Part shown: positions 3,247-14,755 of the stretch, piece by piece
Numbering within the stretch: position 1 is the stretch's first letter
Layout of the letters: every line of letters starts with the position of its first letter
Source: Microlunatus soli
GTDB lineage: Bacteria > Actinomycetota > Actinomycetes > Propionibacteriales > Propionibacteriaceae
Reading direction: 5' to 3'
NCBI RefSeq assembly: GCF_900105385.1
Contig: NZ_LT629772.1
Span: 4,712,001-4,776,000 of the forward strand
DNA: 64,000 nucleotides
Notes under the pieces: generated by a model
Told to the model about the DNA's origin: nothing
Databases searched by the model: none
Seen by the model: the letters and a program-made list of their open reading frames with translations, nothing else
Position numbers and translations under genes: made by a program

Positions 3247-5693
<2,447 letters not shown>

Positions 5694-5897
5694 CCGACAC
5701 ACATCCGCCGGTGGTCTTGCGGTGCACCCGGGCCAACGCGGTCTCGAACCTCTCGGCCGTGCTGCGGTCGCGCCGTGCCGCGGACCGGCAGATTTCGCGT
5801 CCCGGCGGGGTCGCGACTGGGGATTCCTTCGTGGATCGGCCGGTGCGGTGGATATGCTCGCCTCACCGGGTGTCGATGGCGAGCGGAGGGAACTGGG
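5694..5897. other. 204-bp gap between Nudix and ald
   Basis: No credible gene or hairpin seen. It should contain the ald promoter; GATATGCT at about 5850-5857 is a weak -10 candidate and a good Shine-Dalgarno GGAGG sits at 5885-5889, 8 bp before the ald ATG. Confidence 0.4.
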
Positions 5898-7013
5898 ATG
5901 AAGGTTGGCGTACCCACCGAGATCAAGAGCCAGGAGTATCGGGTCGCGATCACTCCGGCCGGCGTCCAGGAGTTCACCACGCACGGCCATGACGTCCTGG
6001 TCGAGGCAGGTGCCGGTGCCGGCTCGTCGATCACCGACGAGGAGTATGCGCAGGCAGGTGCCAAGATCGTCGAGAGTGCCGACGACGTCTGGGGAGACTC
6101 CGAGTTGATCTTGAAGGTCAAGGAGCCGATCAAGGACGAGTACCACCGGATGCGGGAAGGGCAGGTGCTCTTCACCTATCTGCACCTGGCCGCCAGCCGG
6201 GAGTGCACCCAGGCCTTGCTCGACCACAAGGTGACCGGGATCGCCTACGAGACGGTGCAGTTGCCGGACAGTTCGCTGCCGCTGCTGGCACCGATGAGCG
6301 AGGTCGCGGGCCGGATGGCGCCGCAGGCCGGTGCCTACCACCTGATGCGATCCGGCGGTGGCCGTGGCGTGCTGATGGGTGGCGTCTCGGGTGTCTACGC
6401 CGCCAAGGTGGTGGTGATCGGGGCCGGTGTCTCCGGGATGAACGCGGCCGCGATCGCACTCGGGATGCACGCCGAGGTGTTGATCTTGGACAAGAACATC
6501 GAACGACTCCGGCAGGCCGACAAGATCTACCGTGGCCATCTGCAGACCGTCGCCTCCAACGCCTATGAGATCGAACGAGCGGTGCTCGATGCCGATCTGG
6601 TGATCGGGGCTGTCCTGGTGCCGGGTGCCAAGGCACCGACCTTGATCAGCAACGAGCTGGTCAGCAGGATGCAGCCCGGGAGTGTCCTGGTCGACATCGC
6701 GATCGATCAGGGTGGTTGCTTCGCCGATTCCCGGCCGACCACCCATGCCGAACCGACCTACACGGTGCACGATTCGGTGTTCTACTGTGTGGCGAACATG
6801 CCCGGCGGGGTGCCGAACACCTCGACCTTCGCGTTGACGAACGTGACCCTGCCGTACGCGATCAGCCTTGCGGACAAGGGATGGCGGGAGGCCCTCCGCG
6901 CCGATCCGGCCTTGGCCAAGGGGCTGAACACCTACGACGGTCAGGTGACCTATCCGTCGGTCGCCGATGTGCACGAGCTGCCGGTGCTGCCGATCGAGCA
7001 GCTGCTCGGCTGA
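5898..7013 (+). CDS. ald: Alanine dehydrogenase
   Basis: NAD-dependent enzyme interconverting L-alanine and pyruvate plus ammonia; in actinobacteria it feeds alanine into central metabolism or regenerates NAD under low oxygen. The 371-residue product has the standard family length. Catalytic Lys75 (LKVKEP) and His96 (TYLHLAAS) are at the expected positions. The Rossmann nucleotide site GAGVSGMNAAA follows, and the conserved DIAIDQGG stretch carries the second catalytic Asp. The ATG at 5898 has a strong ribosome-binding site, and upstream in-frame codons belong to no family sequence. It sits between the Nudix gene and xerD, apparently as an independent transcription unit. Confidence 0.97.
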   Translation: MKVGVPTEIKSQEYRVAITPAGVQEFTTHGHDVLVEAGAGAGSSITDEEYAQAGAKIVESADDVWGDSELILKVKEPIKDEYHRMREGQVLFTYLHLAASRECTQALLDHKVTGIAYETVQLPDSSLPLLAPMSEVAGRMAPQAGAYHLMRSGGGRGVLMGGVSGVYAAKVVVIGAGVSGMNAAAIALGMHAEVLILDKNIERLRQADKIYRGHLQTVASNAYEIERAVLDADLVIGAVLVPGAKAPTLISNELVSRMQPGSVLVDIAIDQGGCFADSRPTTHAEPTYTVHDSVFYCVANMPGGVPNTSTFALTNVTLPYAISLADKGWREALRADPALAKGLNTYDGQVTYPSVADVHELPVLPIEQLLG

Positions 7014-7021
7014 CGGCCCGC

Positions 7022-7969
7022 GTGCGCCCGACCAGCAGGACCGAGCGGTTGATCAACTCCTACCTTGATCATCTGGCGGTCGAACGTGGCCTGTCCGAGC
7101 ACACCGTCGCCGGCTATCGGCGTGATCTTGCCCGGTACGCGGCCTACCTCGATGATCAAGGAATCACCGAGCCGCGGGACATCGAGTCGTCGACGTTGAC
7201 CGGCTACGCCGTGAGCTTGGCCGAGGGGGTACCCGATCGTTATCCGGCGCTCGCCCAGTCGAGCGCCGCCCGGGCGTTGGCGGCGGTCCGCGGGCTGCAC
7301 AGGTTTGCGGCCGAGGAAGGGGTTACCGAGCAGAATCCGGCGGCGCAGCTGAAGCCGCCACGGCCGGCCCGGCGGCTGCCCAAGGCGTTGCCGCTGGACG
7401 CGGTCCAGACCCTGTTGGCCGCCCCGGGCACCGAGACGCCGTTGGCGCTGCGGGACACCGCGCTGCTGGAACTTCTCTACGGGACCGGGGGCCGGATCTC
7501 CGAGGTCGTCGGGCTGGATGTCGACGAGCTCTCCGGGTTGCTGTCCGAACCGGATGAGGTCGGCGGCCTGCGGGTGATCGGCAAGGGCAACAAGGAACGT
7601 TTCGTGCCGCTCGGCCGCTACGCCAAGAAGGCTGTCACCGACTATCTGGTCCGTGGCCGCCCGGACCTGGCCCGGCGGGGGCGCGGTACACCCGGGTTGT
7701 TGCTCAACGCCCGCGGTGGTCGACTGTCCCGGCAGGGTGCGTGGTTGATCATGCAGCAGACCGCCGAGCGGGCCGATCTGAAGATCGACATCTCTCCGCA
7801 CACCCTGCGGCATTCGTTCGCCACCCATCTGCTGGACGGCGGTGCCGATGTCCGGGTGGTGCAGGAGCTGCTCGGGCACGCCTCGGTGACCACGACCCAG
7901 ATCTACACCCTGGTCACCGTTGATCATCTGCGCGAGGTCTACCTGACCGCGCATCCCCGAGCCCGTTGA
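7022..7969 (+). CDS. xerD: Site-specific tyrosine recombinase XerD
   Basis: Tyrosine recombinase of 315 residues that, with XerC, resolves chromosome dimers at dif during division. The N-terminal SAM-like core-binding domain (LINSYLDHLAVERGLSEHTV) is followed by the catalytic domain. All family residues are visible: Arg in YGTGGRISE, Lys in GKGNKERFVPL, HTLRHSFATH with His and Arg, then GHASVTTTQIYT with His and the Tyr nucleophile. The GTG at 7022 lies 8 bp after the ald stop; longer in-frame extensions run inside ald and are spurious. Its stop codon abuts that of the convergent ogt-like gene, forming TGATCA at 7967-7972. Location near parA and scpAB fits a chromosome-maintenance neighbourhood. 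Confidence 0.95.
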   Translation: MRPTSRTERLINSYLDHLAVERGLSEHTVAGYRRDLARYAAYLDDQGITEPRDIESSTLTGYAVSLAEGVPDRYPALAQSSAARALAAVRGLHRFAAEEGVTEQNPAAQLKPPRPARRLPKALPLDAVQTLLAAPGTETPLALRDTALLELLYGTGGRISEVVGLDVDELSGLLSEPDEVGGLRVIGKGNKERFVPLGRYAKKAVTDYLVRGRPDLARRGRGTPGLLLNARGGRLSRQGAWLIMQQTAERADLKIDISPHTLRHSFATHLLDGGADVRVVQELLGHASVTTTQIYTLVTVDHLREVYLTAHPRAR

Positions 7970-8581
7970 TCATGCCGCCCGCTCGAGGTCGAGCAGGGTC
8001 GATTTCGCCGTCTCGCCTCCGATGTAGCCACCCAGGGTGCCGTCAGTGCGCAGTACCCGGTGGCACGGAACGACCACCGGCAGCGGGTTGGTCGCACAGG
8101 CCGTGCCGACCGCGCGAACGGCCTTCGGATTGCCGACCCGTTCAGCGACCTGTTGGTAGGTCTGGGTCCGGCCGTAGTCGATCTTGGGCAGGTAGCGCTG
8201 CACGGTCTGTCGGAAGCCGGTCGACAGGCTCAGGTCGAGGGGAACGTCGAAGCTGTGTCGGTCGCCGGCGAAGTACTCGTCCAGTTCGCGAGCGACGACG
8301 TCGAGCCGTTGCGGAGCGGCCAGGATGCGCGGGCTGATCTTGGTCGACAGCGCGTCCAGCACGGTGTCGAATCCTTCTTGCTGGTAGGCCACCCGGACCA
8401 GGCCCTGCTCGGTGGCGGCCAACAGCAGCCCGCCGACCGGGGTGTCGATGGTGCGGTAGGCGATGGCGATCAGGCTGTCATGGTCGGCGCGGGCGACCAG
8501 TCGTTCGTGCAATGCGGCCAGCTGTGCCGGGTCGATCGGTAGTTGTTCGGTCAGGGTGCTGCGTTCTGCTGCTGTGTTCAT
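7970..8581 (-). CDS. ogt: Methylated-DNA--protein-cysteine methyltransferase (Ogt/AGT type)
   Basis: Suicide DNA-repair protein of 203 residues that transfers alkyl groups from O6-alkylguanine to its own cysteine. The active site PCHRV (Cys173) lies in ATNPLPVVVPCHRVLRTDG, with the Arg-finger region and HTH upstream (YGRTQTYQQVAERVGNPKAV). The N-terminal RNase-H-like domain is present (IAYRTIDTPVGGLLLAATEQ). The preceding 33 residues, about HERLVARADHDSL, are longer than in short Ogt proteins. The ATG at 8581 overlaps the stop of the upstream sigma factor gene by one base (TGATG), so expression is almost certainly coupled to it. Role is secure; the regulatory meaning of the pairing is inference. 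Confidence 0.92.
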   Translation of the reverse strand: MNTAAERSTLTEQLPIDPAQLAALHERLVARADHDSLIAIAYRTIDTPVGGLLLAATEQGLVRVAYQQEGFDTVLDALSTKISPRILAAPQRLDVVARELDEYFAGDRHSFDVPLDLSLSTGFRQTVQRYLPKIDYGRTQTYQQVAERVGNPKAVRAVGTACATNPLPVVVPCHRVLRTDGTLGGYIGGETAKSTLLDLERAA

Positions 8582-9090
8582 CAGGGTGCTCTCTTCGGTG
8601 TCTTGCCGCTGGTCCGGGTCGGGTCGCCGTACTTGGTGCGTAGCGCTCTGATCCCGTCCGCGGCGGCGCGGCGAACGGCTTGCGGTGTGCCGCCGATCAG
8701 TTCGGCGGTCTCGGTGTGCGGCAGCCCGCCGAGGTAGTGGTAGGCGACCGCGAGTCGTTGACGTTCGGGCAGGGCACCGACAAAGGCCCACAGTTCGGTG
8801 GCCTCCGGGTCCGGATTTCCGAGCCGGGACTCGCGTTCCGGTGGTGCGTCGGTCGGCACCGCGTGTCGGGCTCTGGTTCGGGTGATGTCGATCGCCTTGC
8901 GTCCGGCGACCCGGATCAGCCAGGCCTGCACGTTGGTCGCCGGGTCCAGGTCGGGCCAGGCTCGCAGAGCTGCCAGGAAGGTCTCCGACCACGCGTCGTC
9001 GGCGTCGGGGCCCGGGCCGAGCAGGGCGCGGCAGATCCGCAACACCGCTGCGCCGTGGCGTTGCACCACCTGCTCGAACGGTTCTGTCAT
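8581..9090 (-). CDS. ECF-type RNA polymerase sigma factor
   Basis: Extracytoplasmic-function sigma factor of about 169 residues. Region 2 covers roughly residues 5-75 (VLRICRALLGPGPDADDAWS, then AWLIRVAGRKAIDITRTRAR). Region 4 covers about 105-155 (LPERQRLAVAYHYLGGLPHT, then the HTH ETAELIGGTPQAVRRAA). I favour ATG 9090 because AGGTGAT, complementary to the 16S 3' end, lies just upstream; GTG 9099 or ATG 9096 are alternatives. No anti-sigma factor gene is adjacent. The downstream overlapping gene is an alkyl-DNA repair protein, suggesting the sigma factor responds to or controls alkylation damage. That link is inferred from position only. Confidence 0.88.
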   Translation of the reverse strand: MTEPFEQVVQRHGAAVLRICRALLGPGPDADDAWSETFLAALRAWPDLDPATNVQAWLIRVAGRKAIDITRTRARHAVPTDAPPERESRLGNPDPEATELWAFVGALPERQRLAVAYHYLGGLPHTETAELIGGTPQAVRRAAADGIRALRTKYGDPTRTSGKTPKRAP

Positions 9091-9140
9091 GGTCATCACC
9101 TGGTAGACGCTCCGGGTGCGGCGAACGTGAGGTCAGGGTC

Positions 9141-9761
9141 TCAGACGTCGCCGTGCCCGGCCACCCGGTAGTGGGCGATGATCACGCCGGTCGTGGTCAC
9201 GGTGCTGTCGGTCAGGCTGAGCTCGGCGTACCGGCCCGAGGTGTCGAAGAGCCGGCTGCCGGCACCGAGGACGAGGGGATGGATCAGCAGCGTGTAACGG
9301 TCGACCAGGCCGGCGCTGTGCAGGGTGCGGACCAGCGAAGCGCTGCCGATCACCGACAGGTCCGGCCCCGGCTCCGCCTTCAGGGCCGCAATCGTGCTGG
9401 TCACGTTCCCGTCGGGCCGATGGCGGGTGGGGCGGAGCAGGATCGAGTTCTGCCAGGCATCGGCATCGTCGAGCGTGGTCGAGACGACGTATTTGGTGGC
9501 GTTGTCCAGGTGGGCACTGAACGGATTGCCGTCCTGCCGTCCGCCCCAGGCGGTGCTGAAGTCCTGCCAGGTGCGGCGGCCGAGCAGCAGGTCTCCCGGG
9601 CGGCTCATACCGGTGGCTATCTCCTCGGCCATCACCTGGTCGGTGTAGCCGGTACCCCAGCCGCCGTGGCGGAAGCGGTCGCGGGTGTCCTCATCGGCTC
9701 GTCCGGGCCCCTGGACGACGCCGTCCAGGGTGACGCTCATCGTGACGTGGATCGTGCGCAT
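9141..9761 (-). CDS. Dihydrofolate reductase family protein (RibD C-terminal fold)
   Basis: About 206 residues of the RibD-C/DHFR-like superfamily, begun by MRTIHVTMSVTLDGVVQGPG and containing LLLGRRTWQDF and the late pyridine-nucleotide motif around LSVIGSASLVRTL. Members reduce unknown pterin-like or other substrates with NADPH and are common, poorly characterised genes in actinobacteria. Start at ATG 9761 has AGGAG 8-9 bp upstream on the minus strand. It lies 50 bp before the sigma/ogt pair on the same strand, so it could be read together with them, but nothing else ties them. Exact substrate unknown. Confidence 0.85.
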   Translation of the reverse strand: MRTIHVTMSVTLDGVVQGPGRADEDTRDRFRHGGWGTGYTDQVMAEEIATGMSRPGDLLLGRRTWQDFSTAWGGRQDGNPFSAHLDNATKYVVSTTLDDADAWQNSILLRPTRHRPDGNVTSTIAALKAEPGPDLSVIGSASLVRTLHSAGLVDRYTLLIHPLVLGAGSRLFDTSGRYAELSLTDSTVTTTGVIIAHYRVAGHGDV

Positions 9762-10083
9762 GTCTGCTCCTGTTCGGTCGGGTCCGCAGGTGCGGCCGGT
9801 CACCTCTGACACGAGTCGTGATCGAGTGGATCGACAGCGCCCGGATGGGGAATCTCGTCATGCGGGCGCAGCACGGTGTCAGGTTTGCCTTCGTCGATGG
9901 CCGCCCGACGCACCGGAACCTCGACATCTGTGGGATCGTCGGCCGATCGGAGGCAGCGCCGCCGATCGGCGCGGGCTGCAGCGGGAGGTGGGCTCGTACT
10001 AGGCTCTGCCGGAACGTTGCCAGAGAGATCGAACGGTCGCGGTGTGTCGCAGCCATGCCGCCGGGCGGGGAACAGGAGGATCG
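9762..10083. other. 322-bp divergent intergenic region
   Basis: Separates the minus-strand DHFR-like gene from the parA operon. I see no supported gene: frames through it run on into the parA leader in the wrong frame. It holds the AGGAG ribosome site of the minus gene, a TAGGCT -10 candidate for parA (10000-10005) and the AGGAGG ribosome site before GTG 10084. Confidence 0.5.
10000..10005 (+). promoter_or_regulatory. -10 box candidate (TAGGCT) for the parA-scpAB operon
   Basis: TAGGCT about 80 bp before the parA start; matches the TANNNT pattern of other promoters here. No clear -35 element is visible. Confidence 0.35.
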
Positions 10084-11409
10084 GTGCAGGAATCGCAGGA
10101 TCCACGCGAGGCAGGAACCGCGGGACCCCAATCCGCTGACACCGAACACCCGACACAGCCGGACGGACAGCCGCCGCAACCCGACTCGTCCTACGGACGA
10201 CCTGCCGATCGGCCGTCGGCCCAACCGGACGGCAACCCGTTCGTCCGCCCCACGCAGGCGCTGTACGACCCGGCCACCGATGGACACTCCGGTGCCACTT
10301 TCGTGGTGCCGCCAGAACCGTCCGGCACAGCTGAGCCGAGTGCGCCCGAATCGAATGCATCCGAATCGAGTGCACCCGTGCAGAACCCACCGGGGCAGCA
10401 GAGCGGGACCGGAACCGATCGGACTCCCGAGGACCCCGGCTCGCGCGAGCCCCAGCCGCCCCAGCAGCAGGATCCGGTGGCACGACAGGCCGAGGAACCG
10501 CAGCCGCCGGGTCAGCACCCGGCGGGCAGTGACTCCGACGGCGGTTTGTTCCCGCAACCGGCGGAGCCCGAGTTGGGACCGACGGGTCGGCCCTGGCCGG
10601 AGCTGCCGACCGACTTTCCGCCACCGACCGGCGGCAAGGCGATGATCATCGCGATGTGTAACCAGAAGGGCGGCGTCGGCAAGACCACGACGACGATCAA
10701 TCTGGGTGCCTCGTTGGTCGAACTCGGCCGCAAGGTGCTGTTGGTCGACTTCGATCCGCAGGGGTCGTTGTCGGTCGGGCTCGGGGTCAATCCGCACAAT
10801 CTCGAGGTCAGTGTCTACAACCTGTTGCTCGGACGCGACGTCACCCCCGACGAGGTGATCGAACCGACCTCGGTGGACGGGATGGACATCCTGCCCAGCA
10901 ACATCGACCTGTCCGCTGCCGAGCTGCAACTGGTGTCCGAGGTCGCTCGCGAGCAGACCCTGCTGCGGGTGTTGGAGAAGGTCCGCGGCGACTACGACGT
11001 GATCTTGGTCGACTGCGCGCCGTCGTTGGGGCTGCTGACGATCAACGCCCTGACCGCGGCGGACAAGGTGCTGGTCCCGTTGGAGTGCGAGTTCTTCGCC
11101 CTGCGGGGGGTCGCGCTGTTGACCGACACGATCGAGAAGGTGCAGGAGCGGCTCAACCCCGACCTGGACATGCTCGGCATCCTGGGCACCATGTACGACC
11201 CGCGGACCCTGCACAGTCGCGAGGTGTTGGAACGGGTGGTGCAGGCCTTCGGTGACACCGTGTTCCACACGGTCATCCGGCGCACGATCAAATTTCCCGA
11301 GACCACCGTCGCCGGTGAACCGATCACCACCTACGCGTCCGACTCGCCCGGTGCCGGCGCCTACCGGATGCTCGCCCGAGAGGTACTCGCGCGATGCCTC
11401 GTCGGGTAA
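10084..11409 (+). CDS. parA: ParA/Soj-family ATPase with long disordered N-terminus
   Basis: Deviant Walker ATPase of 441 residues. The first 180 or so residues are Pro/Gln/Glu/Ser-rich and disordered. The ATPase domain then begins KAMIIAMCNQKGGVGKTTTT with Walker A, switch I near LVDFDPQGSLSVGLG and Walker B near DVILVDCAPSLGLLTINA. It corresponds by order to the ParA homologue beside scpA in mycobacteria, which is distinct from the origin-proximal ParA of parABS. GTG 10084 is preceded by AGGAGG at 10074-10079; the frame continues upstream without a better start. The next gene begins inside its last 16 bases. Probable role in nucleoid or SMC-linked segregation; the cargo is unknown. Confidence 0.9.
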   Translation: MQESQDPREAGTAGPQSADTEHPTQPDGQPPQPDSSYGRPADRPSAQPDGNPFVRPTQALYDPATDGHSGATFVVPPEPSGTAEPSAPESNASESSAPVQNPPGQQSGTGTDRTPEDPGSREPQPPQQQDPVARQAEEPQPPGQHPAGSDSDGGLFPQPAEPELGPTGRPWPELPTDFPPPTGGKAMIIAMCNQKGGVGKTTTTINLGASLVELGRKVLLVDFDPQGSLSVGLGVNPHNLEVSVYNLLLGRDVTPDEVIEPTSVDGMDILPSNIDLSAAELQLVSEVAREQTLLRVLEKVRGDYDVILVDCAPSLGLLTINALTAADKVLVPLECEFFALRGVALLTDTIEKVQERLNPDLDMLGILGTMYDPRTLHSREVLERVVQAFGDTVFHTVIRRTIKFPETTVAGEPITTYASDSPGAGAYRMLAREVLARCLVG

Positions 11410-11972
11410 GCCTTCCCGGGGCGGCCGAACTCTTCCGTACCACGCCGGCGGAGCGTCGTTCCGGTCGCCGAGACGACGAACGGGTCGACGAACGGGTCGC
11501 CGACGCCGAGCCCGAACGCGCACCGGTCGAGGCCGACCGATCTGGTCAGCCCGCGAATTCGGTGCAGGTCGGGAACCCGGGGCAGGCCGAGGGCCGTCAG
11601 GATGCCGGCGGGCGACAGCAGCCGGAGCCCCGGCCGACGGCCGCAGAATCCCCGCCCGATGAATCCCCGTCCGATGAATCCCCGTCCGAGTCCGGCCCCG
11701 CAACATCGCCGGCACGGTCGCCGATCACCCCCGAGCAGCGAACCGGTCGCCGCTCGGGCAGTGGACGGGTCCGACACGACGAGAAGATCACCGTCTACGT
11801 CAGCAATGACGAGTTGCTGGATCTCGAACGCGCCCGGCTGTCGTTGCGGGCGGAGCACCGGATGGCGGTCGACCGCGGTCGGATCGTCCGGGCAGCGTTG
11901 GCGATGGCGCTCGGCGACCTGGCCGAGCGAGGCCCCGAATCCGAGCTCGTCCGAAGGTTGTCCCAACCGTGA
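11394..11972 (+). CDS. Ribbon-helix-helix-like protein between ParA and ScpA
   Basis: Protein of 192 residues whose first 120 or so are low complexity, with an Asp-Glu-Ser-Pro repeat encoded by a 15-bp DNA repeat near 11655-11694. The C-terminal 60 residues look folded: one strand (EKITVYVS), a helix (DELLDLERARLSLRAEH) and a second helix (RGRIVRAALAMALGDLAE), the pattern of a ribbon-helix-helix DNA-binding domain. It overlaps parA by 16 bp and scpA by 4 bp, so it is firmly part of the operon. RHH proteins act as centromere-binding partners of ParA in plasmid systems, which makes a ParA-partner role attractive. I do not recognise a named family. Confidence 0.7.
   Translation: MPRRVSLPGAAELFRTTPAERRSGRRDDERVDERVADAEPERAPVEADRSGQPANSVQVGNPGQAEGRQDAGGRQQPEPRPTAAESPPDESPSDESPSESGPATSPARSPITPEQRTGRRSGSGRVRHDEKITVYVSNDELLDLERARLSLRAEHRMAVDRGRIVRAALAMALGDLAERGPESELVRRLSQP
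11655..11694 (+). repeat. 15-bp tandem repeat in the RHH-like gene
   Basis: About 2.6 copies of a 15-bp unit with core GATGAATCCCC, encoding repeated SPxDE pentapeptides in frame. Confidence 0.85.
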
Positions 11973-12949
11973 CGGCTTCCAGTGGCCCGATGCAGGACGA
12001 CCCCGACCAGATCGACCTGCAGCCGAACGACGCGGGCCAGAACGCTTCGGGCCAGGAGGTTTCGGGCCAGGAGGTTTCGGGTCAGCTCGAGATCGATGAG
12101 GGCGACAACGGTCGGACCGACGGCGGCTTCAGCGTCCGGTTGACCAACTTCGAGGGCCCGTTCGACCTGTTGCTGCAGTTGATCTCCAAGCACAAGCTGG
12201 ACATCACCGAGGTGGCCCTGTCCCGGGTGACCGACGAATTCATCGCCCACATCAAGGCCGCCGGCGACGACTGGGACCTGGAACAGACCAGCCAGTTCAT
12301 CGTGGTCGCAGCCACGCTGCTGGATCTGAAGGCCGCCCGGCTGCTGCCCAGCGGTGAGGTCACCGATCCCGAGGACCTGGCGCTGCTGGAGGCCCGGGAC
12401 CTGCTGTTCGCCCGGCTGCTGCAGTATCGCGCCTTCAAGCAGATCGCCGCCGGCTTCGGCGAACAACTGGAGGTCCAGGCCCGGCGGCGGCCACGCACCG
12501 CCGGCCTGGAGGACTGGCTGACCAAGCTGCTGCCCGAGATCACCATCAAGATCAGCCTCGAACGGTTCGCCGAGCTCGCCGCCCGGGCGATGACGCCGAA
12601 GCAGGCCGATGTCGTGTCGCTGGCCCACCTGCACAGCCCGGCGGTCACCGTTCGCGAACAGGGCGGCATCATCGTCGACCGGCTGAAGATCACCGGGCAG
12701 CTCACCTTCGCCGAGCTGACCAAGGATTCCCCGGATCGGATCACCACCGTCTGCCGGTTCCTGGCGTTGCTGGAACTGTTCCGGGAGAAGGCGATCAGCT
12801 TCGAACAGCCGACCCCCTTGGATGCGCTGACCATCCGGTGGACCGGAAGCGCCGATCAACAGGTCACGATCTCCGACGAGTTCGACACGCCACCTGAGCA
12901 ACCGGACGATGATGACAGCACCACCGAGAACGAAGGCAGCGATGACTGA
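11969..12949 (+). CDS. scpA: Segregation and condensation protein A (kleisin)
   Basis: Kleisin subunit of the SMC-ScpAB condensin that organises the chromosome and helps separate sister origins. After about 40 disordered residues the conserved N-terminal helix pair starts at FSVRLTNFEGPFDLLLQL, followed by SKHKLDITEVALSRVTDEF. The C-terminal winged helix that docks on the SMC head contains TVCRFLALLELFREKAISFE. Length (326) is somewhat above the usual 250-280 because of both tails. The GTG start overlaps the previous stop (GTGA). The N-terminal tail includes a 15-bp repeat (12046-12085) encoding SGQEV units. No smc gene is in the window. Confidence 0.95.
   Translation: MTASSGPMQDDPDQIDLQPNDAGQNASGQEVSGQEVSGQLEIDEGDNGRTDGGFSVRLTNFEGPFDLLLQLISKHKLDITEVALSRVTDEFIAHIKAAGDDWDLEQTSQFIVVAATLLDLKAARLLPSGEVTDPEDLALLEARDLLFARLLQYRAFKQIAAGFGEQLEVQARRRPRTAGLEDWLTKLLPEITIKISLERFAELAARAMTPKQADVVSLAHLHSPAVTVREQGGIIVDRLKITGQLTFAELTKDSPDRITTVCRFLALLELFREKAISFEQPTPLDALTIRWTGSADQQVTISDEFDTPPEQPDDDDSTTENEGSDD
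12046..12085 (+). repeat. 15-bp tandem repeat in scpA N-terminus
   Basis: Two perfect copies (12046-12060, 12061-12075) and a partial third of a 15-bp unit; translated as repeated SGQEV. Confidence 0.9.
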
Positions 12950-14003
12950 CCAGTACGACGAGGACATCACCGAGGAACGGGACCCTGCCCTTCGACAGGC
13001 TCAGGGCCCTGGTGACGTCGCTGCCGAGGTCCCAGATGAGGTGCCGACCGAGGAACCGGGCGAGGTGCCGACCGAGGAATCCGACAGGGTGCCCACCGAG
13101 GAGTCGGTCGAGACGCCGACCGAAGGATCCGACGGAGCTCCCGCTGAGCGGCCCGACGTGCCTGCGTCGGAGAACCCTGCGCCGGACGAAGGGACCGAAG
13201 CCGACGACGCATCCCGGCCCGAGGAACCGATGATCGCCGCGGAGCCGACGCGGACGCCGGAGGAGTTGCAGAGCGCGCTGGAAGCCCTGCTGCTGGTCGC
13301 CGACGAGCCGATCAGCGAGACGGCGCTGGCGGCGACGCTGAACACGCCGACCGCCGACGTCACCGAAGCGCTGGGCGAGCTGGTCCGGTTCTACGACGAG
13401 ACCGGTCGCGGGTTCGAGCTGCGCGCTGTCGCCGGCGGCTGGCGCTACTACACCCGGGAGCAACACGCCGAACTGCTCAGCGGCTACGTGCTGGAAGGTC
13501 AGCACGCCAAACTGTCGCAGGCTGCGTTGGAGACGCTGGCCGTGATCGCGTATCTGCAGCCGGTCTCCCGTTCCCGGGTCTCCGGGGTGCGCGGGGTCAG
13601 CGTCGACGGTGTGATGCGGACACTGCTGACCCGCGACCTGATCACCGAGATCGGGTCGGAGGACTCCGGAGCGACGCTGTTCGCCACCACCGACTACTTC
13701 CTGGAGCGGATGGGCCTGCAGTCGCTGGACGAGCTGCCCGAGATCGCGCCGTACCTGCCGGAAGCCACCGAGCTGGAGGCGGAGTTGGGTCAGCTGGCCG
13801 TGGTCCCCGATCCGGAGCCGTCGGCGGACAACGATGCGCTGCCCGACGAGCCGGAACTCGGCCTGGCCCCGGATGACCTGGCCCCGGATGACCTGGACCA
13901 GGACGGCGTGGACCAGGACGGCGTGGACCAGGACGGCGTGGACCAGGAGAGCAGCGTGGACCAGGGAGACGCCGTTGATCAGGACGAGGAGAATCGGGCG
14001 TGA
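12942..14003 (+). CDS. scpB: Segregation and condensation protein B
   Basis: ScpB (353 residues) dimerises through winged helices and binds the ScpA linker in the SMC complex. The conserved core begins at TPEELQSALEALLLVADEPI and includes GWRYYTREQHAELL, LSQAALETLAVIAYLQPVSR and RGVSVDGVMRTLLTRDLI. The core is flanked by an acidic 100-residue N-terminal tail made of EVPTEE-like repeats and a C-terminal DQDGV repeat. Residues around 16-22 (ALRQAQGP) are encoded by an inserted REP-type palindrome. ATG 12942 overlaps the scpA stop by 8 bp; the next gene overlaps its stop by 4 bp. Tails are unlikely to be needed for the core function. Confidence 0.94.
   Translation: MTDQYDEDITEERDPALRQAQGPGDVAAEVPDEVPTEEPGEVPTEESDRVPTEESVETPTEGSDGAPAERPDVPASENPAPDEGTEADDASRPEEPMIAAEPTRTPEELQSALEALLLVADEPISETALAATLNTPTADVTEALGELVRFYDETGRGFELRAVAGGWRYYTREQHAELLSGYVLEGQHAKLSQAALETLAVIAYLQPVSRSRVSGVRGVSVDGVMRTLLTRDLITEIGSEDSGATLFATTDYFLERMGLQSLDELPEIAPYLPEATELEAELGQLAVVPDPEPSADNDALPDEPELGLAPDDLAPDDLDQDGVDQDGVDQDGVDQESSVDQGDAVDQDEENRA
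12987..13007 (+). repeat. REP-type palindrome (CCTTCGACAGGCTCAGG family) inside scpB
   Basis: 21-bp interrupted palindrome with arms GCCCT/AGGGC and core TTCGACAGGCTCA. It is the reverse complement, with one mismatch, of the copy at 16234-16254. Read in frame it gives ALRQAQG. This short palindrome recurs in many GC-rich bacterial genomes. Confidence 0.85.
13863..13940 (+). repeat. Two adjacent 15-bp tandem repeats in scpB 3' end
   Basis: Two copies of CTGGCCCCGGATGAC (13863-13892) and three perfect copies of GACCAGGACGGCGTG (13896-13940) encode LAPDD and DQDGV pentapeptides in the acidic C-terminal tail. Confidence 0.92.
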
Positions 14004-14755
14004 CCGACAACGGTGAGGCCGGTCGGGACGCCGAGGGCGTCCGGCTGCAGAAGGTGCTCGCTGCCGCCGGGATCGCCTCCCGACGGGGCAGCGAGGAGCT
14101 GATCGCGCAGGGTCGGGTCGAGGTGAACGGCAAGATCGTCACCGTCCAGGGGATGCGGGTCAACCCCGACACCGACGCGATCCGGGTCGACGGCAAACGC
14201 ATCCCGCCGCCCCGCCGACACGTCTACCTGGTCTTCAACAAGCCGCGCGGCGTGGTGTCGACGATGGACGATCCGGAGGGTCGACCGACACTGGCGCAGT
14301 ATCTGGAGGGTCGCAAGGAACGGCTCTTCCACGTCGGCCGGCTGGATGCCGACACCGAGGGCCTGCTGATCCTGACCAACGACGGCGAGTTCGCCCACCG
14401 GCTGGCCCATCCGTCCTACGAGGTGCCGAAAACCTATGTCGCCGAGGTGGTCGGCAGCGTGGATCGGGCCACCTTGAGCAAGCTGCGCAAACCGTTGACC
14501 CTGGAAGACGGACCGGTACGCGCCGAGGACGTACGCCTGGTATCGGCCACCGCGGAACGTAGCATGGTCACCATTACCTTGCACGAAGGGAGAAACCGCA
14601 TCGTGCGACGCATGCTGGATGCCGTCGGTCACCCGGTCAGACGGCTGTCCCGGGTCTCGATCGGCCCGGTCAAGTTGGGCAACCTGCGGCCCGGGGAACT
14701 CCGCGAACTCGAATCCGACGAGCTGGGCAAGCTGCTCGATCTGATCGAGCGGTAA
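14000..14755 (+). CDS. rluB: 23S rRNA pseudouridine synthase, RluB/RsuA family
   Basis: Converts a specific rRNA uridine to pseudouridine; by gene order (directly after scpB) it corresponds to the RluB-type enzyme modifying the peptidyl-transferase region of 23S rRNA. An N-terminal S4 RNA-binding domain is visible ([20 protein letters not shown]). The catalytic domain has the active-site Asp in [17 protein letters not shown], then [18 protein letters not shown] and [18 protein letters not shown]. At 251 residues it has the family length without extensions. Its GTG start overlaps the scpB stop (GTGA). In mycobacteria cmk and der come next, but here pafA follows after 13 bp. Confidence 0.93.

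Follow-up and report, generated by a model that had tools for sequence, protein, structure and literature searches.

The locus described here raises a simple question: how is an ECF sigma factor controlled when no anti-sigma gene lies beside it and the gene that follows it in its operon encodes a suicide DNA repair enzyme? The window, i.e. the whole stretch of 64,000 nucleotides that was analysed (G000:C1:4712001-4776000, part of a single-contig genome of 6.73 Mb), carries the two genes as follows:

8581..9099, minus strand: ECF sigma gene, ECF122-like, 172 amino acids, regions 2 and 4 only
9099, minus strand: GTG start codon of sigma, with an alternative ATG at 9096 (ORF reading)
8583-8581, minus strand: TGA stop codon of sigma (ORF reading)
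7970..8581, minus strand: ogt, O6-alkylguanine-DNA alkyltransferase, 203 amino acids (Pfam and fold match)
8581-8579, minus strand: ATG start codon of ogt (ORF reading)
8063..8065, minus strand: catalytic cysteine codon, Cys173 of the PCHR motif of Ogt, invariant in 74 alignment rows

The sigma protein matches Sigma70_r2 (52.4 bits) and r4_2 (35.8 bits), and the two domains (PF04542 and PF08281) span residues 12-152 of 172, the ECF architecture. An acidic DADD stretch can be read in region 2.2. The NCBIfam top match is SigE-fam_strep, under its cut-off, and a PDB search with the sigma profile retrieved ordinary ECF factors only. Ogt matches PF01035 (102.7 bits) and PF02870 (44.4 bits), and PF01035 together with the PCHR cysteine identifies it as an alkyltransferase. 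The initial annotation had reported a one-base overlap between the two genes and the lack of an anti-sigma gene, and both statements are confirmed by ORF reading and Pfam: the sigma stop and the ogt start form TGATG, with one base in common, and none of the four proteins compared with Pfam (sigma, Ogt, RibD_C, and XerD) matches an anti-sigma family. The xerD gene (7016-7969) is convergent and lies downstream of ogt. A PADLOC scan gave no match.

The ECF122 group, reportedly introduced in the Casas-Pastor 2021 classification, shares these traits. In the accessible passages of a 2022 review (PMC8999054), ECF122 stands among the groups without an anti-sigma factor, its mechanism is listed as unknown, its conserved neighbour is a 6-O-methylguanine DNA methyltransferase, and its model member comes from Cellulomonas; the sigma-ogt pairing is hence already recorded and is not new. 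The window has the same combination, namely an ECF factor with regions 2 and 4 only, no adjacent anti-sigma gene as cognate partner, and a methyltransferase neighbour. What is new here, as far as it can be read from sequence, is an Ogt extension, a putative promoter, further repair genes, and the co-occurrence of these features with sigma; the account of ECF122 in the same passages includes neither the extension, nor the promoter, nor the further repair genes. The pair is also present in Cellulomonas composti (L054). A literature search, with most subscription journals outside its scope, found no experimental study of the pair.

Conservation of the pair in relatives, on which the initial annotation had made its proposal depend, was borne out. 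A 22-row sigma alignment, used to scan the collection, returned at least 593 stretches and at least 573 relatives, of which the best 80 were kept for analysis, all Actinomycetota by record name. In 78 of these best 80 of at least 573 loci, ogt lies directly downstream of sigma on the same strand; in the two exceptions (L060 and L114), the contig ends at or just after sigma. Within the same best 80, Ogt accompanies sigma at all complete linked loci, and no other partner does. Sigma matches occur in 85 of 396 genomes at E values up to 1e-20 and in 52 of 394 at up to 1e-30 (phylum and class samples).

All fetched loci together yielded 197 sigma-ogt pairs in which Ogt exceeds 150 amino acids. This set is not fully deduplicated: some pairs represent one genome under two sources (e.g. 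L034 and L159), while extensions are identical in L040/L155 and in L088/L163, repeats for which the DCA weights used below allow. Ten of 144 loci were left out of the pair reading (four, plus L115, plus five duplicates of family loci). The overlap as such proved ordinary: an ATGA four-base overlap (-4) occurs in 159 of the 197 pairs and the one-base form in five, and the latter was therefore rejected as a special feature. The PCHR motif is present in 195 of the 197 linked Ogt proteins, and no natural sigma-Ogt fusion occurs among the pairs read. To note, the sigma gene of L225 (G858) is frameshifted at about residue 70, by a sequencing error or in a decaying copy.

The gene content of these operons bears on what the sigma factor serves. 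A tblastn search of the 80 loci for repair families, with one representative protein per family checked in Pfam, found at least one further alkylation gene in 45 of them (second ogt, tag, alkB, PF09859 oxygenase, or Ada-Zn). The 3-methyladenine glycosylase tag (PF03352) is encoded in 21 loci, AlkB (PF13532) in 16, and a PF09859 oxygenase in eight. Tag, alkB, PF09859, and Ada-Zn account for 52 placements, every one downstream and on the same strand, while a second ogt is found just upstream in 24 of 80 loci. The earlier proposal that a sigma factor may be dedicated to alkylation repair thus gains in substance: the operons gather further repair genes behind one promoter, and such a circuit appears well supported. 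A free-standing Ada zinc domain is found in L035, L037, L045 (the same locus as L006; Granulicoccus phenolivorans), L047, L077, L081, and L092, and this protein could possibly be a phosphotriester sensor split from Ada.

The predicted promoter of the window operon has the following parts:

9101..9134, minus strand: sigma-ogt operon promoter, PWM score 34.8
9131-9126, minus strand: -35 element CTCACG, with a spacer of 16 nt to the -10 element
9109-9103, minus strand: -10 element CGTCTAC, with about 3 nt between it and the GTG start

It is the sole site above 14 bits in a PWM scan of the window. The consensus CTCACR-N16-CGWCTA was first read by eye upstream of the operons and then scanned, with up to two mismatches, up to 1 kb upstream, and with CGTTCT and CGTTTA allowed as alternatives for the -10 element. 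It was found at 124 of 127 sigma loci, with identical spacing in 120. A matrix built from these sites gave 94 matches across the 80 named loci and no match when each locus was shuffled once; the test is partly circular, as most of the 94 sites had trained the matrix. With this matrix, all 80 named loci possess a site, which lies within 62 nt of sigma in 67 and farther upstream in 13, mostly ahead of a second ogt. Sites at -960 (L050), -346 (L066), and -194 (L100) from sigma precede a first gene that is only partly identified; the same is true of an extra site in L092, at -701 from sigma on the opposite strand. Among 77 newer sigma loci from more distant families, 33 lack a site scoring over 14 bits, which suggests that the motif or the matrix drifts there. 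The distance from the -10 element to the start codon is mostly 3 to 6 nt; leaderless transcripts are therefore likely, and the mRNA of the window operon is probably leaderless. The RibD_C-type (dihydrofolate-reductase-like) gene located 5' of sigma on the same strand (9141-9812, minus) abuts the promoter and was not seen as an operon member in relatives. It was rejected as a member here too, since the promoter at 9101-9134 falls wholly between its stop (9141) and sigma.

The promoter is also selective at the genome scale. Within its own 6.73-Mb genome, the exact pattern has a single match, at the sigma-ogt operon, versus two for a control pattern; a longer pattern, allowed up to three mismatches, adds five sites, each of which has three, while the control yields seven. 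No site was found within the loci examined for the alkB-type and tag genes of this genome and for its three other PF01035 genes. A stricter pattern was used to search 44 genomes, 30 with sigma and 14 taken as sigma-less. Exact sites, 24 in all, occur in 23 of the 30 sigma genomes, with none exact in the other seven. Nineteen of the 24 are at sigma or ogt-sigma operons (including the ogt operons of three genomes with sigma in trans, described below) and three lie before separate ogt genes (G783, G130, and G140), with the ATG 5 nt after the site, so that 22 of 24 belong to sigma/ogt operons or separate ogt genes. One exact site in G906 is not ahead of any ORF, and neither is the one site found in the sigma-less set (G020). 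The control pattern matched five times in the 44 genomes. An exact site in G056 (L271, G056:C12:118277-118306) is located 5 nt before the ATG of a 172-amino-acid protein with no family assigned, a possible extra regulon member.

The second new feature resides in Ogt itself, upstream of its catalytic core:

8468..8581, minus strand: residues 1-38 of Ogt, an N-terminal extension that neither M. tuberculosis OGT nor the sigma-less relatives possess
8480..8530, minus strand: predicted extension helix, residues 18-34 (AlphaFold2 model), with an L24-R27-L28-A32 face

The closest solved fold is that of M. tuberculosis OGT (PDB IDs 4wxc and 4bhb; TM 0.71 by query and 0.86 by target, 37% identity), the best PDB match covering 163 columns of the 203 residues. 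M. tuberculosis OGT does not possess the extension: its phmmer matches begin at residue 40 of the window Ogt. No Pfam match in Ogt falls outside residues 40-201, and the extension exhibits no resemblance to known anti-sigma families and no cysteine in residues 1-38. For the window Ogt, AlphaFold2 (74 rows, pLDDT 94.3) models two helices before the core, residues 3-13 with low confidence and residues 18-34 with high confidence; pLDDT block means are 80-94 over residues 11-40. Since the helix is modelled confidently on Ogt alone, it may pack on Ogt. Its face is conserved among 196 linked rows: L24 in 152, R27 in 139, L28 in 165, and A32 in 189. Linked Ogt proteins have a median of 43.5 residues before the core motif (minimum 22); in distant families the extension shrinks to 22-30 residues and the motif is weaker. 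The ogt gene of L014 (G076) has a frameshift in the extension region, from a sequencing error or in a decaying copy.

Presence and absence across the family suggest that extension, promoter, and sigma are gained and lost together. Among 53 family loci (56 less L021 at a contig edge, L032, a duplicate of L253, and the frameshifted L014), sigma, extension, and promoter are all present in 28 of the 28 sigma-bearing loci, and extension and promoter are both absent in 24 of the 25 sigma-less ones, the extension being called by a simple regex that was drawn up post hoc. The exception, L244, is a regex match in the stretch ahead of the likely start codon. An extension HMM trained on the named loci gives scores between 22.8 and -0.9 for 26 linked family loci and between -2.7 and 2.3 for the in-trans loci, overlapping the sigma-less loci, hence the use of the regex. 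Sigma changes six times on the best tree. Two independent sigma gain/loss pairs lie on starred branches and both agree in nearly all random pairings, modest statistics, as a sign test on two pairs cannot reach significance.

Two situations are particularly instructive. A genome-wide check for sigma absence covered 16 genomes, of which 14 gave no match at 1e-15 and G139 a weak one. G088 has a strong sigma match far from ogt, as do G120 and G059. In these three genomes, where sigma would act in trans, an ogt2-ogt operon carries both the promoter (scores of 36.1, 37.1, and 32.4, respectively) and the Ogt extension, which suggests that the extension works in trans as a protein or is retained for that purpose. 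No promoter site was found within the sigma locus examined in any of the three, which suggests that self-amplification is not universal. The reverse case is L015 (G113; an assembly fragmented into 610 contigs with 8% contamination), whose flanks are 89% identical to those of L007 (G096). The promoter is missing, as is almost the whole of sigma, of which a 3'-end stub remains; 30 in-frame extension codons have been lost by a deletion separate from that of sigma, and the Ogt core is kept.

The reading favoured here is that Ogt would be the missing anti-sigma factor as well as the alkylation sensor, the pair forming a self-amplifying alkylation-response switch; we put its probability at about 0.5. 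Ogt is proposed as the holder of sigma because it is the only universal companion and because its extension accompanies sigma whether the genes are linked or unlinked and disappears with it. The initial annotation had suggested Ogt as a sensor or regulator: this role gains circumstantial support, the extension tracking sigma even when the two genes are unlinked. The sigma factor would recognise CTCACR-N16-CGWCTA and thereby drive the operon that encodes it, as well as other ogt genes in relatives. The N-terminal helix of Ogt would bind sigma and keep it off RNA polymerase. Alkylated transferases unfold or get degraded; once Ogt is alkylated at its cysteine in suicide repair, its hold might be lost or Ogt itself destroyed, and sigma would be freed. 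Freed sigma would then boost synthesis of itself and of new Ogt until there is once more an excess of unmodified Ogt over damage. An autoregulated sigma factor with an intact acidic region 2.2 would be expected to run away if nothing restrained it. We infer sigma binding by the extension, inhibition by Ogt, release on alkylation, and promoter recognition from the patterns above; the specific version in which the helix sequesters a private sigma factor and irreversible methylation of the active-site cysteine frees it falls a little short of even odds.

Sigma might also be controlled otherwise, by proteolysis, an unlinked factor, free Ada-Zn, or basal transcription, the extension having a sigma-related but non-sensing role such as bringing Ogt to the transcription complex or tuning Ogt turnover. 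This explanation, which we consider rather unlikely, finds a candidate in the free Ada zinc domain (PF02805) encoded in seven of 80 operons, and a precedent in other anti-sigma-less ECF groups, which use transcriptional control or proteolysis according to the accessible part of PMC8999054. Mean-field DCA on 196 sigma-Ogt pairs (effective number 160), too few sequences for this method, does not single out the extension: it is involved in five of the top 50 inter-protein couplings versus 9.0 expected, and in 16 of the top 100 versus 18.1, a result compatible both with contact and with its absence. However, Ada-Zn was not found in the other 73 of the 80 loci, nor is any other partner universal.

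A second explanation turns Ogt into a positive partner: alkylated Ogt would bind sigma through the extension and activate or stabilise it. Methylated Ada becomes an activator, and the co-occurrence of extension and sigma serves this explanation equally well. Alkylation as a signal has precedents in Ada and in Cada2 (accessible part of PMC10957082). Yet the sigma factor looks complete, with the acidic residues of region 2.2 present, and should need no activator, and an unrestrained positive loop would presumably lock on; activation by alkylated Ogt is accordingly judged unlikely.

The extension could also be a by-product of the gene overlap, reflecting translational coupling or RNA structure at the junction, as most pairs overlap by ATGA or a similar form. 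This is disfavoured and very improbable: the three in-trans genomes keep the extension with no sigma gene preceding ogt, which led to the rejection of mere translational coupling, and the helix residues are conserved at the protein level, above all A32. A chance association of sigma and ogt in one operon, with sigma serving another stress, is hardly credible given the near-constant downstream position of ogt, the richness of the operons in alkylation genes, and the promoter sites at unlinked ogt genes.

Compared with known systems, the proposed switch, with Ogt as both anti-sigma factor and sensor, would combine familiar parts in a different way. As in Ada of E. coli and Cada2 of Caulobacter, alkylation repair appears to be under a dedicated regulator with a suicide alkyltransferase as plausible sensor. 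Whereas an Ada regulator unites an Ada zinc domain and an AraC-type domain in one protein, Ogt here has neither, only PF01035 and PF02870, and a separate sigma factor would provide transcription. Cada2 is described as another methylation-dependent design in the available part of PMC10957082. By analogy with ECF factors and their class I anti-sigma (ASDI) partners, whose binding is treated in the accessible part of PMC7406223, the locus has a co-transcribed downstream partner, a putatively autoregulated promoter, and a helical segment proposed to hold sigma. It differs from them in that the partner is a DNA repair enzyme, in which neither an ASDI domain (Pfam) nor an HxxxCxxC zinc motif (no cysteine in residues 1-38) was found.

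If Ogt is indeed the anti-sigma factor, the suicide of an enzyme becomes the signal, a design not described in the accessible parts of the literature found. The cell would then count spent repair molecules, and a third adaptive-response design would stand beside Ada and Cada2 and be widespread in Actinomycetota. The mechanism of ECF122 becomes directly testable through the promoter, the extension helix, and the three natural situations (linked, in trans, and both lost). The promoter, found once in 6.7 Mb, may point to additional regulon members and could serve as an orthogonal promoter. Finally, the minus-strand RibD_C-sigma-ogt block splits, between xerD and parA, a plus-strand block at window positions 3256-14755, which we take to comprise pyrG, a NUDIX gene, alanine dehydrogenase, xerD, parA, scpA, scpB, and rluB (xerD alone was checked).
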